DNA of 13,017 nucleotides from an uncultured Bacteroidales bacterium (lineage in GTDB: Bacteria > Bacteroidota > Bacteroidia > Bacteroidales > P3), in the NCBI GenBank assembly GCA_937906975.1, contig CALCUN010000186.1:1-13017 (forward strand). The letters run 5' to 3'. The position numbers were made by a program, and so were the translations under genes. How positions within the stretch are numbered: the stretch's first letter is position 1; each line of letters opens with the position of its first letter. Below, piece by piece: positions 1,587 through 13,016 of this stretch. Under the pieces are notes generated by a model. That model worked only from the letters and a program-made list of their open reading frames with translations. It did no database searches and was not told the origin of the DNA.

Positions 1587-4500
1587 TTATATTTTGGATA
1601 AGTGTGTTATGATTATTGCAAGGAGATCCTGTCCATAAAACTCCCAATACTTTTCTCCAAATCCATAAATGTCCATTATTTCTTCATGGCTTGTTGGTCT
1701 GTTGGTTGCTAATTGTACAAGAATTTGATTTGTAAGAATAGGGGCATTTTCTTTTTTGTAGTTATTCTTGTATTTATATAGTTTATCAAATAAAGACAAA
1801 TCTGTAAGTAAATTATCAAATGAATCAACAGCAATTTTTACTACTTGATCATTCAAATATATGTCTTTGTATTTTATTGCATTTATTGTTTGAGGCTTTC
1901 GTTCTCTTATTTGTTTTTCTTCTATTATTTTAGGAGGTAAATCTTTTATGTTTTCTTCCTTGTAGTAGGATTGTTTTTCTATTGATTCATCATTTACTCC
2001 AAATTTATTATTAAGCCAAAACTTGTAATGTGTTTTATTTAATGAACGATTACAACCTGAATTGTCTTTTTTGTAATTGGTACAACCTAAGAAAAAGTCA
2101 TTGTTATTTTGTTTTACTATTAAATATCCGTCTTTGCACCAATCACATTTATGAATCGACATTTCTTTTTCTCGTTTATCATTTGTCATAAATCCGCAAA
2201 TTTCTTGGTCGTTTGTGCATATCCAAAGTTTTAATCCATAGTTTTTATTCCATTTTAGTTGCATTGGATAACCACATTTAGGACATTTGTTTTTTACATC
2301 GGTGTTTTCTTTTGCATTTGCGGATAATTCTCCTGTGAGTGTAAGATTTGGATAGTTATGTGGTTCGTTTAGTAATTCTTTTATAAATTCTGATGGTCTG
2401 TTTTTAGGTGTTATTATAAAGACTCTATTTTTTGTTCTTGTTAGTGCTACATAAAATAGTCTTCTTTCTTCGGCATAATTGTATGAGTCATCGTATGATA
2501 CTACAAGTTTTAAGATTGGGTCATCTTCTACCTTGGAAGGAAATCCGTATGTATTGTCTTTTGCATTTATTATTATGACATTTTCTGCACTTAAGCCTTT
2601 TGAACTATGTGCTGTCATAAAACTTAGTTTTACTTTTGAACCATATTTGCTTGAAAATACGTTTCCGCTTTTTTCATCATAGCTAAATTGATTTGATTTA
2701 CACATATTTCTTGCGTCAAAGCCATATCTTCCAATAAATAGGATAGAGGGTATTTGTGATTTCTTTTCTATGGAGTTGAATTTTATGATTTGACCTATTA
2801 TTTCGTTTAAAGCAAATCCTATGTTGTAAAATACTCCTCCTTTTTCTGTTGGTTTATTCAATGAATAACTATCATCATAGGTGTGAATAAAGACAGGATT
2901 GTTGATTCTTTTAGGGGAGATTAAAGCTTTCTTTATTTGGTTGGAGTTTTTTTGGATAAAGTTACCTGCAATGTTTATAATCTCTTGTGCATTGCGATAG
3001 GTGTGTGTTATTTTTAGTTCACAACCATAGCCAACTACATTGCAAAATTGTGTAAATAAAGGAAGGACAGAGCCACTAAAAGCATAAATTGATTGCCAAT
3101 CGTCTCCAACTGCCATTATTTTTGCATTGCATAATTGTGATATTTCTTTTATTAGATTATATCTTTGTCTTGATATGTCTTGATATTCATCTACTATTAT
3201 ATATTTAAAATCTATTTTTTCTTTTGAGAGTTGTTTGTTTTTGATTATTAGAGCCGAGTTATTTATCATATCTTGAAAATCAATATAATTAAACTCTTTT
3301 AATGTTTTTTGGTATTCAAGAAAACATACCTCACATATTTCTAAAAATAATTGTGTTCTTGGATTTTTTACTGTTTGTTTAAATTCACTGAATTTTTGAT
3401 AATTGTATCCTTGTGTTTTGAAATTGCCAATGAAACTACAAATAAAGAGGGTTAATTTTGTGATATACTTGCTTTCTTGTTTGTCTATGAGTTGTTTATA
3501 AATCTCTTCGGAGTTTCTTTTATTTAGAGTATAACCTCTTTTTACTAATTCTTCTTCGAGATGAGAAAGTAGTGAGCGTTTGTCTTTGTATTTTGAGAAT
3601 GTGTATATTAAATCTGTCTTGTGTTGTCTATGTAGGAGTATTTTTTTATTAACAATACTCTTGTATTTATCTAATTCTTCTTGGGAGTATCTATTGTTTT
3701 TTCCATCTTCCGTAATGCCAAAATGTTCAATATATGAGGTTTTATCTCCTTGTTTTATAATGAAATCTGGTGTATAAGGTTTGTTTGAATCTAATATGCG
3801 ATATTGATAAATTGGTTCATACTCATATTCAATTTGGTTAAGGTATAGAAAGTTTGCAATCATAACCTCATCAATTGAACGTAAAGTTTCATTTCTTAGG
3901 GTTTCTTTTTTGTTTGTTTTTCTATCAATTATTTCTTTTGCATATTCGTTAAGATTACTTTTTAGAGAAGAAAAGTCGCTATTAGCTATGAATTTAAAAT
4001 ATTCATTTATGTTCTTATCCTCGTAAGGTGCAGAAATATATGATGCAAAGAATAGAATTAGTTTATCAACTAATACATGGTCTTTTAGAATGTTTGTTTT
4101 AAGATAGTTGTTTATGATATTGTAAAGAAAACCTCCATCTACAACCTTTTTTTGTTCTGTTTCGCTTTGGCGTAATATGGAATAGCCAATAGAATGAAAC
4201 GTACTTATTGTGGCAGGTATTTTTAATTTGTGATTTATTCTTTCTTTTAATTCTTCCACTGCTTTGTTTGTGAAAGAGATTACTAAGATTTGAGAGGGGT
4301 TAATCTTTTGTTTTTCTGTCAAATACTTTACTTTGGCTGCAATTGTTGTTGTTTTGCCCGCACCAGCTCCTGCAATTACAAGAGTGTGGTCTTCATCTGT
4401 TAAAATAACTCGCCTTTGTTCCTTATCAAGCATAATGGAAGAATCGCAATCTTTTAGGATTGTATCAAGATATGCTTGTTCTGATTTTAAATGTCTTTGA

Positions 4501-4847
4501 ATAAAATCTTCATTATGGGCTTTTATTGTGGGAGATTCTAATTTTAGATTTTGAATTTCTTTATATAAGGAAGTAAAGCGGTTGATTTGCTTAATATTTA
4601 TTTTGTATTTTTTAGAAAAGTCATTTAGTAAGCCATTATTGTAAATGGGTAGTAAAGAATTGTAAAGTTCTTCGTATTCGGTAATTAGATTTTTATAATC
4701 GCTTCTTGCAATAAAACAATCTTTTTTAAGTAATTCATCTATTTTATTGTTGAAGACTAAAATATCAGAGTATAATTTATGGGTAAACTTGTTAGAAGAA
4801 ACTATTATCTCTTCTTTTTTGCGTTTTAAAAAGTCAAATATCCCCAT
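1587..4847 (-). CDS. UvrD/Rep-type SF1 helicase with nuclease-like insert, two zinc ribbons and HRDC-like tail
   Basis: A 1086-residue ATP-dependent DNA translocase, expected to act in the cytoplasm on DNA repair or recombination intermediates. SF1A motifs appear in order: Q motif (LDKEQRRVIL, 140-149), Walker A GAGAGKTT (160-167), Ia (about 187-200), Walker B IIVDEYQD (550-557), III GDDWQSIYAFSG (581-592), IV THTYRN (614-619), V TAHSSKGL (745-752) and VI YVALTRTKNR (799-808). Inserted at about 320-380 is a PD-(D/E)XK-like pattern: E327, PDF with D361, and IEHFG with E374. The usual lysine two residues after the Glu is Phe, so cutting activity is doubtful. Two topoisomerase-type zinc ribbons follow (C855/C858/C877/C884 and C901/C904/C922/C932), then an HRDC-like region (about 1020-1083). 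It resembles helicase IV-like proteins more than UvrD or PcrA, which are shorter and lack these additions. All motifs are intact. A defence role cannot be excluded, but nothing next to it suggests one. Confidence 0.9.
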   Translation of the reverse strand: MGIFDFLKRKKEEIIVSSNKFTHKLYSDILVFNNKIDELLKKDCFIARSDYKNLITEYEELYNSLLPIYNNGLLNDFSKKYKINIKQINRFTSLYKEIQNLKLESPTIKAHNEDFIQRHLKSEQAYLDTILKDCDSSIMLDKEQRRVILTDEDHTLVIAGAGAGKTTTIAAKVKYLTEKQKINPSQILVISFTNKAVEELKERINHKLKIPATISTFHSIGYSILRQSETEQKKVVDGGFLYNIINNYLKTNILKDHVLVDKLILFFASYISAPYEDKNINEYFKFIANSDFSSLKSNLNEYAKEIIDRKTNKKETLRNETLRSIDEVMIANFLYLNQIEYEYEPIYQYRILDSNKPYTPDFIIKQGDKTSYIEHFGITEDGKNNRYSQEELDKYKSIVNKKILLHRQHKTDLIYTFSKYKDKRSLLSHLEEELVKRGYTLNKRNSEEIYKQLIDKQESKYITKLTLFICSFIGNFKTQGYNYQKFSEFKQTVKNPRTQLFLEICEVCFLEYQKTLKEFNYIDFQDMINNSALIIKNKQLSKEKIDFKYIIVDEYQDISRQRYNLIKEISQLCNAKIMAVGDDWQSIYAFSGSVLPLFTQFCNVVGYGCELKITHTYRNAQEIINIAGNFIQKNSNQIKKALISPKRINNPVFIHTYDDSYSLNKPTEKGGVFYNIGFALNEIIGQIIKFNSIEKKSQIPSILFIGRYGFDARNMCKSNQFSYDEKSGNVFSSKYGSKVKLSFMTAHSSKGLSAENVIIINAKDNTYGFPSKVEDDPILKLVVSYDDSYNYAEERRLFYVALTRTKNRVFIITPKNRPSEFIKELLNEPHNYPNLTLTGELSANAKENTDVKNKCPKCGYPMQLKWNKNYGLKLWICTNDQEICGFMTNDKREKEMSIHKCDWCKDGYLIVKQNNNDFFLGCTNYKKDNSGCNRSLNKTHYKFWLNNKFGVNDESIEKQSYYKEENIKDLPPKIIEEKQIRERKPQTINAIKYKDIYLNDQVVKIAVDSFDNLLTDLSLFDKLYKYKNNYKKENAPILTNQILVQLATNRPTSHEEIMDIYGFGEKYWEFYGQDLLAIIITHLSKI

Positions 4848-9396: not shown

Positions 9397-9482
9397 ATTC
9401 GTTGGAAAAAGTGTAATAACACCCTATTTATTCGTTGGAAAAAGTGTAATGACACTTTGTTTATTCGTTGGAAAAAGTGTAA
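9397..9482 (+). repeat. 33-bp tandem repeat, three copies, in the ATPase promoter region
   Basis: The 20-bp core ATTCGTTGGAAAAAGTGTAA occurs without mismatch at 9397-9416, 9430-9449 and 9463-9482, a period of exactly 33 bp. The first two cores are followed by 13-nt tails that differ (TAACACCCTATTT and TGACACTTTGTTT). The tail of copy 2 supplies the -33 box and the end of copy 3 supplies the first bases of the -7 box of the ATPase promoter. The period is close to three helical turns, so proteins bound to each copy would lie on the same face of the DNA. Confidence 0.9.
9441..9458. promoter_or_regulatory. Inverted repeat overlapping the -33 box of the ATPase promoter, possible operator
   Basis: AAAGTGT (9441-9447) and ACACTTT (9452-9458) are perfect inverted repeats around AATG. 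The right arm overlaps the TTT of the -33 TTTG at 9456-9459. The equivalent in copy 1 is decayed. It could be a repressor site or an RNA hairpin; this is inferred from position only. Confidence 0.45.
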
Positions 9483-11766: not shown

Positions 11767-11828
11767 TCTCAGCAACCATGCGTTGAAGGAGAAACGGGGG
11801 CGATATATTCTATCGCTCCTTGCTTTTT
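11767..11828 (+). ncRNA. Candidate small RNA of about 60 nt converging on the BECR-like gene
   Basis: No known RNA family is recognised. Three signals support it: a consensus promoter ends at 11761, a 38-nt block (11765-11802) is about 58% GC in otherwise very AT-rich intergenic DNA, and a hairpin with a T-tract ends at 11828. A small upstream stem, CAAC-CATGC-GTTG (11773-11785), precedes it. AAGGAG (11786-11791) can pair with CTCCTT (11816-11821), competing with the terminator stem. Its last 19 nt are complementary to the end of the convergent gene, including the stop codon. Alternatives are a promoter stranded by insertion of the neighbouring pair, or a structured 3' end of that operon. Confidence 0.35.
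11796..11828 (+). terminator. Hairpin plus T-tract ending the plus-strand small transcript
   Basis: There is a 10-bp stem, GGGGGCGATA (11796-11805) with TATCGCTCCT (11811-11820, two G-U pairs), and loop TATTC. On the plus strand TGCTTTTTAT follows. On the minus strand the stem contains the stop codon of the convergent gene and is followed by CGTTTCTCC, a poor T-tract, so the plus strand is the better fit. It may still shield the 3' end of the minus transcript. Confidence 0.55.
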
Positions 11829-12307
11829 ATATATACTTCGTATTCTTTTAATAATTTCTCTTTTCTTGATTTATATTCTATTAAATAAGCAGTCCAAGGT
11901 AAGATATAATCTTTTGCTTTTCTCAATACTACTAAATAATTTTCTTCTTCATGAAATATAAGAATATTTGTTTTGTTAGCACGAGTATTTTCCCATACTT
12001 TTAAATAAGGATGTTCCGATTTGTTAATCATTGCCGCAGGCCAGCTTATTCTTTCCATTCGTCTTAAATCAGGTTCTCTATTTGCCTCATCTTCTCCTTC
12101 GGAAGTCATGTGCCAAAAAGTAGCTTCTTTTTCTTGAAAAAGTGGATATTTCTTTAAACCAAGTCTTACTCCTCTGAATATTGGACGATTTATAATAAAA
12201 TCTCGTTTAAAGCATTCGTAAACAGCTTCAAGATATTTGAGAAAATCTCCGTTAAACTCATCTAATTCAATTAAGTTTGGAAGATTAAAGTATTCTTTAT
12301 TTTCCAT
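11810..12307 (-). CDS. Putative BECR-fold RNase-like protein, partner of DUF3800
   Basis: A 165-residue soluble protein with no signal peptide or membrane segment. The start at 12307 (MENKEYFNL) is preferred; the frame is open to 12346, but those extra codons lie wholly inside the upstream gene. The N-terminal half is helical. The core has FWHMTSEG (H66), EPDLRRMERISWP (R82, R83, R86, W89), KVWENTR, and a last pair of strands YLVVLRKAKDYILPWTAYLIE (T139, Y141). The His, Arg and terminal Thr-x-Tyr pattern resembles phage-type PBECR nucleases (barnase, EndoU, colicin E5/D and RelE-like fold), which cut RNA without metal. This assignment rests on motif resemblance only. The gene overlaps the DUF3800 gene by 11 nt, so the two are probably translationally coupled. 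No separate antitoxin gene is seen. The stop codon TAG sits in a hairpin shared with a candidate convergent small RNA. Confidence 0.75.
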   Translation of the reverse strand: MENKEYFNLPNLIELDEFNGDFLKYLEAVYECFKRDFIINRPIFRGVRLGLKKYPLFQEKEATFWHMTSEGEDEANREPDLRRMERISWPAAMINKSEHPYLKVWENTRANKTNILIFHEEENYLVVLRKAKDYILPWTAYLIEYKSRKEKLLKEYEVYIKSKER

Positions 12308-13004
12308 AACTAGGGTGCCAAATAAAAATGTTAAACTTGTTTTCACGAAATAAAGTACTAGCCATTAAATTGTAGCCACTTCTAGTTTTTATACGTTCAA
12401 TTAGTTTTAATTTAGCTTCACTAGTATTTTTGTTTCTGTGAAGATAAGATAGTGCACCTATCATCAAATCAGCTAATGCTACTAGCTCAACTTCTTCTGA
12501 ACGGACTTGTTGTACTTTGCGTATAAGTTTTCTATTAAAATCATAATGATTATTGCATAACACTTCGTGTAGTTTTTCTACTTTACGCTGTCCTCGTGTA
12601 TCTTTTATATCAATATATATATTATATTCTGAACCAGGTTCAAAAAGTGTTTTTAGCATATTGAAGTACATTTTATAGTAAAAATCATCGTGAGTTTGTT
12701 TGTATAACTCATGTATTAATTCTTGTTTATTAGGGACAACTAATACACGAAAATGTAAATCGCTATTATCAAAAAAATAATTGACAATATCCATATAGAA
12801 ATCAAGTTTACCCATGGATACTTTATTCCATTTTATTTCAAATTTCTCGCTTAATCCATGTTCTTTTTTAATTTCTCTTATGCGATTAAATATTTCATTT
12901 TTTTTGTTGTGAGGACACCATATTCCTCCTATTGTCATTGCTTTTTCTCCATCGTGTTCTAAATGACAACTTTCATCACAATATATGTTATATAAATTTC
13001 CCAT
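12297..13004 (-). CDS. DUF3800 protein (predicted RNase H-like fold)
   Basis: A 235-residue protein that appears complete. It has the DUF3800 landmarks: an opening strand YNIYCDES (D10, E11, S12), GGIW (26-29), EIKW (K58), a central strand YNIYIDIKD (D132, D135), and the C-terminal signature VRSEEVELVALADLMIGALS with D179. The spaced acidic residues D10, D132 and D179 fit an RNase H-like active site, as proposed for this family, so a metal-dependent nuclease is plausible but not proven. DUF3800 genes are common in phages, mobile elements and accessory islands. It precedes and overlaps the BECR-like gene. Unlike every other gene in the window it has a perfect ribosome binding site, AAGGAG, 6 nt before the ATG. 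Its promoter lies beyond the right edge, so genes further upstream in the same unit cannot be excluded. Confidence 0.88.
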   Translation of the reverse strand: MGNLYNIYCDESCHLEHDGEKAMTIGGIWCPHNKKNEIFNRIREIKKEHGLSEKFEIKWNKVSMGKLDFYMDIVNYFFDNSDLHFRVLVVPNKQELIHELYKQTHDDFYYKMYFNMLKTLFEPGSEYNIYIDIKDTRGQRKVEKLHEVLCNNHYDFNRKLIRKVQQVRSEEVELVALADLMIGALSYLHRNKNTSEAKLKLIERIKTRSGYNLMASTLFRENKFNIFIWHPSYGK

Positions 13005-13010
13005 AATTTA

Positions 13011-13016
13011 CTCCTT
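13011..13016 (-). promoter_or_regulatory. Canonical Shine-Dalgarno sequence of the DUF3800 gene
   Basis: The minus strand reads AAGGAG-TAAATT-ATG, a full anti-SD match at optimal spacing. It fixes the start at 13004. None of the other start sites in the window has such a match, and Bacteroidota genes usually lack one. Confidence 0.8.

Follow-up and report, generated by a model that had tools for sequence, protein, structure and literature searches.

The 13,017-nucleotide stretch analysed here, referred to as the window, is positions 1 to 13,017 of contig CALCUN010000186.1 from an uncultured Bacteroidales bacterium (assembly GCA_937906975.1), and it ends in two overlapping genes on the minus strand, A and B. 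A sequence-only reading had singled out this pair as a possible nuclease-based conflict system; both genes are present as described, with an overlap of 11 nucleotides (nt). The genes and their associated features are the following.

12297-13004, minus strand: gene A (RlfA-like), ATG start, 235 residues; DUF3800 protein with a predicted RNase HII fold; D10, E11, E56, D132 and D179 conserved
11810-12307, minus strand: gene B (RlfB-like), ATG start, 165 residues; predicted BECR-type fold; H66, R77, R83, R86, T139 and Y141 conserved
12297-12307, minus strand: overlap of the 3' end of A with the 5' start of B, 11 nt
13011-13016, minus strand: AAGGAG, likely ribosome-binding site of A, read from the sequence

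A mechanical list of open reading frames (ORFs) starts B at an earlier GTG, giving 178 residues, and the ATG start agrees better with the relatives of the protein. The window edge lies 13 nt upstream of A, and a TAA at that edge, ten bases before the ATG of A, hints at the possible end of an upstream gene; in 11 relatives the gap between A and the upstream gene ranges from -4 to +27 nt. A matches the Pfam family DUF3800 (PF12686) with an E-value of 1.1e-12 and 49.4 bits against a curated cut-off of 21, and the Pfam search assigned no family to B. In a set of 70 B relatives, no Pfam family matched more than two proteins, and the best match (E = 0.0032, in one member) is likely due to chance. 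NCBIfam gave no match for either protein, and the Pfam searches found no ATPase family in A or B and no HEPN family in A, B or the 70 B relatives. None of the DUF3800-associated structured RNAs in Rfam reached the gathering score beside the pair in the 19 loci searched, and none was found at E-values up to 1 in the window, which lacks the upstream side of A.

Judged by sequence comparison, the pair is RlfA-RlfB of phage P1 and the PADLOC defence candidate PDC-M04, so the earlier view of it as an undescribed system does not stand. PADLOC identifies A as PDC-M04A (E = 3.9e-98) and B as PDC-M04B (E = 1.7e-65), adjacent as in PDC-M04. P1 RlfA is 49% identical to A over 225 residues and P1 RlfB 37% identical to B, and a pair in Bifidobacterium phage Bbif-1 has 47% identity to A and 29% to B; both phage pairs score as PDC-M04. 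The order in P1 is that of the window, with one base common to both genes, and the P7 counterpart of the P1 pair is RapA-RapB. The P1 and Bbif-1 pairs differ in being annotated as possibly associated with lytic replication, and there is no restriction-modification (R-M) gene in the stretches of them that were examined. A scan of viral contigs with B found no relative. Distant DUF3800 proteins (25-26% identity) occur in a Mannheimia phage and in phage Chuche, in neither case with an annotated B-sized gene just downstream on the same strand.

PDC-M04 comprises the same two adjacent genes, the text consulted on it states no fold or mechanism, and our literature search found no account of PDC-M04 by name and no test of its activity. 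The candidate is said to originate from a 2024 preprint by Payne et al., which may already report the R-M setting of the pair. What this analysis adds is the recognition of the pair as P1 RlfAB, fold predictions of RNase HII type for A and BECR type for B, and its recurrence inside R-M loci of three kinds. As for other names, the PHROGs family of B is labelled 'replication protein', which is consistent with the relation to phage P1; as a statement of function the label is unsupported and was set aside. Nothing supports the 'oxidoreductase' label of the public entries for P0123 and other relatives of P1 RlfB, and the source label 'rflB' left no trace in the literature, the P1 gene name being rlfB.

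The relationship between A and B was surveyed in two partly overlapping sets of loci (L) and genomes (G), with L003 = G318, L004 = G001, L006 = G083 and L033 = G002. The first comprises 44 named loci from a scan of named genomes with one B peptide pattern, a procedure that favours B proteins with the H66 motif; by their titles, these loci span Bacteroidales, Gamma- and Deltaproteobacteria, Nitrospira, Dehalococcoidia, Leptospiraceae, Bipolaricaulota and others. In 43 of the 44, B is immediately preceded by A on the same strand (in two of these A forms the end of a larger protein), and in 42 of the 43 loci with both genes a start codon for B occurs no later than the final base of A. The two genes thus form a conserved unit, as the sequence-only reading had supposed, and are far from being rarely adjacent. 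The second set is a sample of 393 genomes from the order to which Bacteroides congonensis (G001, which holds L004) belongs, called Bacteroidales here. Of these, 31 have B and likewise 31 have A, and all 32 A genes adjoin B. This last count combines 20 fetched loci, nine pairs placed by coordinates and three in which B was initially missed (L072-L074; L074 is a weak match, E = 1e-4); the 32 genes derive from 34 A matches, one split gene accounting for two of these and G148 contributing a distant DUF3800 protein (E = 4e-12).

Some pairs are damaged. Among the 32, B is internally deleted in G343 and interrupted by a stop in G095, A is split in G052, and the two are joined in G018. The joined A-B ORF (L064/L096, G018) was considered as a fusion and rejected, since the end of A and the start of B are both missing from it, apparently through a deletion. 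Of the 31 Bacteroidales genomes that have B, three show no A nearby (fragments in G025 and G358, a diverged B in G117); among the named loci this is so in L023 only, where a B frame stands open beside HsdR without an early start codon and is maybe a remnant. In the class of Marinobacter, five of 369 genomes carry B, and one of the five (G443) has a B fragment without A. The diverged B-like protein of G117 (L108, 8373-8729) has no DUF3800 partner and follows four genes after a IIG-like protein, which suggests that B may have other partners. Pairwise distances among A proteins correlate with those among B proteins (0.82; the highest of 999 permutations was 0.21). The pair is also mosaic: at L008 (7223-8495) and L090 (7920-9240), A is 91% identical and B 40%, with the methyltransferase and Res at about 55%, which indicates that the two genes recombine independently of each other in type III loci.

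Residue conservation was scored over 73 aligned A/B pairs. The acidic residues of A are nearly invariant (D10, E11 and E56 in 73/73, D132 and D179 in 72/73), and the basic residues of B are conserved (H66 and R83 in 73/73, R77 in 72/73, and R86 in 65/73 with lysine in four more). B also has a T/S-x-Y/F motif, with T or S at position 139 and Y or F at position 141 in 70 of the 73 pairs each. The residues singled out from the window alone, namely D10, D132 and D179 of A and H66, R83, R86 and T139/Y141 of B, are therefore in place and conserved. R82 of B, proposed along with them, is near-invariant in a 27-row alignment of close relatives and loses that status in a 70-row alignment.

The structural model of A is predicted to adopt an RNase HII-type fold, with a structural match across most of the chain, in agreement with the earlier prediction that DUF3800 is RNase H-like. 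Its conserved acids D10, E11, D132 and D179 may correspond to the catalytic acids of RNase HII. B is predicted to have a small BECR-type fold, as had been proposed: its AlphaFold2 (AF2) model (predicted local distance difference test score, pLDDT, 93.8) shows helices and an antiparallel sheet of four strands, closest to BECR proteins, and an additional N-terminal helical part. The first 21 structural matches listed are colicin D, contact-dependent inhibition (CDI) toxins, toxins of the RelE/HigB/YafQ/ParE type and RegB, with modest Z-scores. A Foldseek search of B against the PDB returned nothing significant (the top entry, at E = 0.88, was TreTu, a different toxin), and a structure search of BFVD returned one uncharacterised phage protein with E = 5.0e-12. 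By sequence, the PDB held no convincing relative of B (best E = 0.95) or of A (best E = 0.0019, a designed protein).

The pair is found repeatedly in R-M loci. Neighbours were labelled with our own profiles, built from ten Pfam-checked seeds and one IIG seed (from L044, whose protein was checked as well), and a locus was counted as R-M if such a gene lay within four genes of the pair; the weakest labels (L023, L031, L081, L100, L101 and L109) depend on a single helicase- or HsdS-like gene unconfirmed by Pfam. Loci with Pfam-checked housekeeping or surface neighbours were counted as having no R-M, or as edge loci if a contig end was near (L009, L014, L016). By this measure 21 of the 44 named loci have R-M genes near the pair, 15 have none and eight lie near a contig end. 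Among 33 further loci the corresponding numbers are 18, 12 and three, with L108, the B without A, among the 18. All R-M neighbours found are on the strand of the pair. A conflict setting, in line with the sequence-only reading, is apparent from relatives in R-M loci and in phages; the R-M genes next to these relatives, the chief clue, are not visible from the window alone.

Three kinds of R-M locus are represented. Pfam identified type I components at L003 (HsdR and an HsdM-type methyltransferase), L030 (HsdR, HsdM and HsdS) and L022 (HsdM). An N6/N4 methyltransferase and a ResIII helicase flank the pair in a type III-like arrangement at L005; L007 has a methyltransferase too, and L028 a ResIII gene by the pair. 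In two loci, L042 and L044, A forms the C-terminal end of Eco57I/type IIG-like methyltransferase proteins of 1,572 and 1,508 residues, respectively, with B directly after; a large gene just upstream at L044 reads as a helicase by our own inspection, made without a profile. Further neighbours are an Eco57I and ResIII protein (L095), an Eco57I/TaqI-type protein (L102), and N6 and N6/N4 methyltransferases (L012, L013). For comparison, the positions of methyltransferases belonging to three Pfam families were determined in those 31 Bacteroidales genomes that carry A. By hand count, 15 of the 32 pairs have one within 8 kb, compared with about 1.3 expected from density alone, clustering in defence islands being left out of this expectation. 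Two other features of these neighbourhoods were observed. At L025 (4481-7084) the pair is separated from a type I-like methyltransferase by an NB-ARC (STAND-type) protein, and L005-L008 encode a protein of 965-973 residues, a few genes upstream of the methyltransferase-A-B-Res block, that is similar to the large upstream gene of L044 (our label PLDhel).

One quick tree was made from 73 A proteins. It leaves out L086, L087, L096 and L111, where A or B is broken, shortened or joined, and the loci without A or B, including L002, where B was missed in gene calling. The presence and absence of R-M genes require at least 16 changes on this tree, and well-supported branches force at least nine changes of the label when contig-edge loci are counted as not R-M. 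The label is mildly clustered, with 20 changes compared to a mean of 24.7 in shuffled data, a value as low arising in 14 of 500 shuffles. The type of system also switches among near relatives: type III L028 is placed next to the type I loci L030-L035, IIG L102 next to type I L110, and type I L092 next to IIG L095. The R-M context of the pair is labile, and the pair has been repeatedly recruited. The window copy falls in a five-member clade (support 96) with L003 and L004 (HsdR-HsdM-A-B) and L008 and L090 (type III), all four of which are R-M-embedded. Only 13 nt of the window lie beyond the start of A, so an R-M neighbour of the window copy is proposed by reference to these closest relatives.

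Elsewhere in the window, positions 1587-4847 encode a UvrD-type helicase of 1086 residues that carries an HRDC domain and, at a score slightly below the cut-off, a zinc ribbon; the PADLOC profiles GajB and RTasHel match the helicase parts of this protein, and the gene beside it reads, in our own interpretation, as glycine dehydrogenase. Short tandem repeats with units of 21 and 33 bases occur at 158-253 and 9397-9482.

These observations are in keeping with an accessory RNase module of R-M loci, similar to PrrC with other folds. The interpretation as defence is based on the pairing, the fixed order and overlap, the conserved catalytic-type residues, the same-strand embedding in R-M loci and the two IIG-like fusions. 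It is quite possible, although we stop short of calling it probable, that RlfAB serves as a second line of defence in which the predicted RNase RlfB would cut RNA and halt translation once restriction has been blocked or breached. In such a scheme the pair would act when the adjacent system (type I, type III or IIG-like) is blocked or breached; A, perhaps sensing or cutting an RNA-DNA hybrid or other nucleic acid, would together with the R-M complex set the activity of B; B would be the RNA-cutting effector; and the outcome would be growth arrest or abortion of the phage. Several observations weigh against this scenario: the structural scores of B are modest, there are loci without R-M genes, and in P1 the pair is likely under lytic control.

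The P1 setting invites a different explanation, in line with the annotation, that the genes serve phage replication or host takeover, A removing RNA primers or hybrids and B processing RNA in lytic growth. The P1 pair follows repL/oriL and an annotated C1 operator, and the predicted RNase HII fold of A would suit RNA-DNA hybrids. Nevertheless, a CRISPR interference (CRISPRi) screen of P1 scores both rlfA and rlfB as non-essential (PMC10695390), and two other papers describe the rlfAB region as one of eight highly variable regions in P1-like elements (PMC9603915) and as replaced in some elements (PMC6906374). Plasmid records matching the neighbouring bplB number 680 (blastn), compared with 101 that match the window B (tblastn). 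Of five bplB records examined, one carries a DUF3800 gene, and in the remaining four that place is taken by hokD, by a transposase and hokD, or by ParA and DUF3892 genes. Many copies in named genomes adjoin R-M genes, and taken together we regard a replication role as improbable.

Two further explanations appear unlikely, the second slightly more so. The pair could be a toxin-antitoxin system in which A neutralises the RNase toxin B, and would then serve as an addiction element, lending stability to R-M loci and phage-plasmids. A small overlapping two-gene unit, the RelE-like fold predicted for B, the coupled presence of A and B and the occurrence on the plasmid-prophage P1 would all fit, but A is a larger protein with invariant catalytic-type acids, unlike a simple antitoxin. 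A weaker objection comes from B without an intact A, given that L023 is maybe a remnant, the B of G117 is diverged and the split A of G052, next to an open B, may be a sequencing error. Alternatively, A could be the restriction nuclease itself, an RNase H-fold enzyme acting on DNA or RNA-DNA hybrids that replaces or supplements HsdR or Res with B as a helper. RNase H folds serve DNA nucleases too, and the fusion of A to the C-terminus of type IIG-like methyltransferases (L042, L044) is what such a role might produce. On the other hand, many loci retain their own HsdR or Res by the pair, so that no nuclease is missing there, and B follows A even in both fused loci.

For the reading of RlfAB as a back-up to restriction, the closest precedents are the anticodon nucleases PrrC and RloC, linked to type I R-M systems, where an RNase-type gene likewise lies inside R-M operons and likely acts as a back-up when restriction fails. 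They differ in having an ABC-ATPase; the RlfAB pair has no ATPase family, combines a predicted BECR protein with an RNase HII-fold partner and accompanies three R-M types. PrrC-type proteins are HEPN proteins. PrrC is reported to lie within a type IC locus and to become active upon inhibition of the restriction enzyme, and is named together with PARIS as a restriction guard (PMC12707154). BECR proteins such as colicin D, CDI toxins, HigB, RelE, YafQ and RegB share with B the predicted fold and the conserved His/Arg/Thr set; they differ in that no sequence relationship to B was found and in that B has extra N-terminal helices and a fixed DUF3800 partner. V-A2 and VI-F CRISPR loci also contain DUF3800 proteins, for which an RNase H fold is predicted and which are described as defence-system accessories (PMC10910872, PMC12669027). 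There they are fused to tetratricopeptide repeats (TPR) or linked to CRISPR, and the parts of these reports that were available mention no B partner.

These comparisons lead us to speculate, tentatively, that RlfAB is a plug-in restriction guard, in which an RNase HII-fold partner holds a BECR RNase. The unit would be passed among type I, type III and IIG systems, would detect the defeat of restriction and would kill or stall the cell through RNA cleavage; P1 rlfAB would be the same weapon in a phage. Guards of the PrrC and PARIS type rest on few examples. If the proposed role is true, a guard with another RNase fold, swappable among three R-M types, would show the coupling of restriction to RNA cleavage to be a general strategy, and it would provide both a testable function for the 'replication' genes rlfAB of P1, an easily handled phage, and a mechanism for a catalogued defence candidate.
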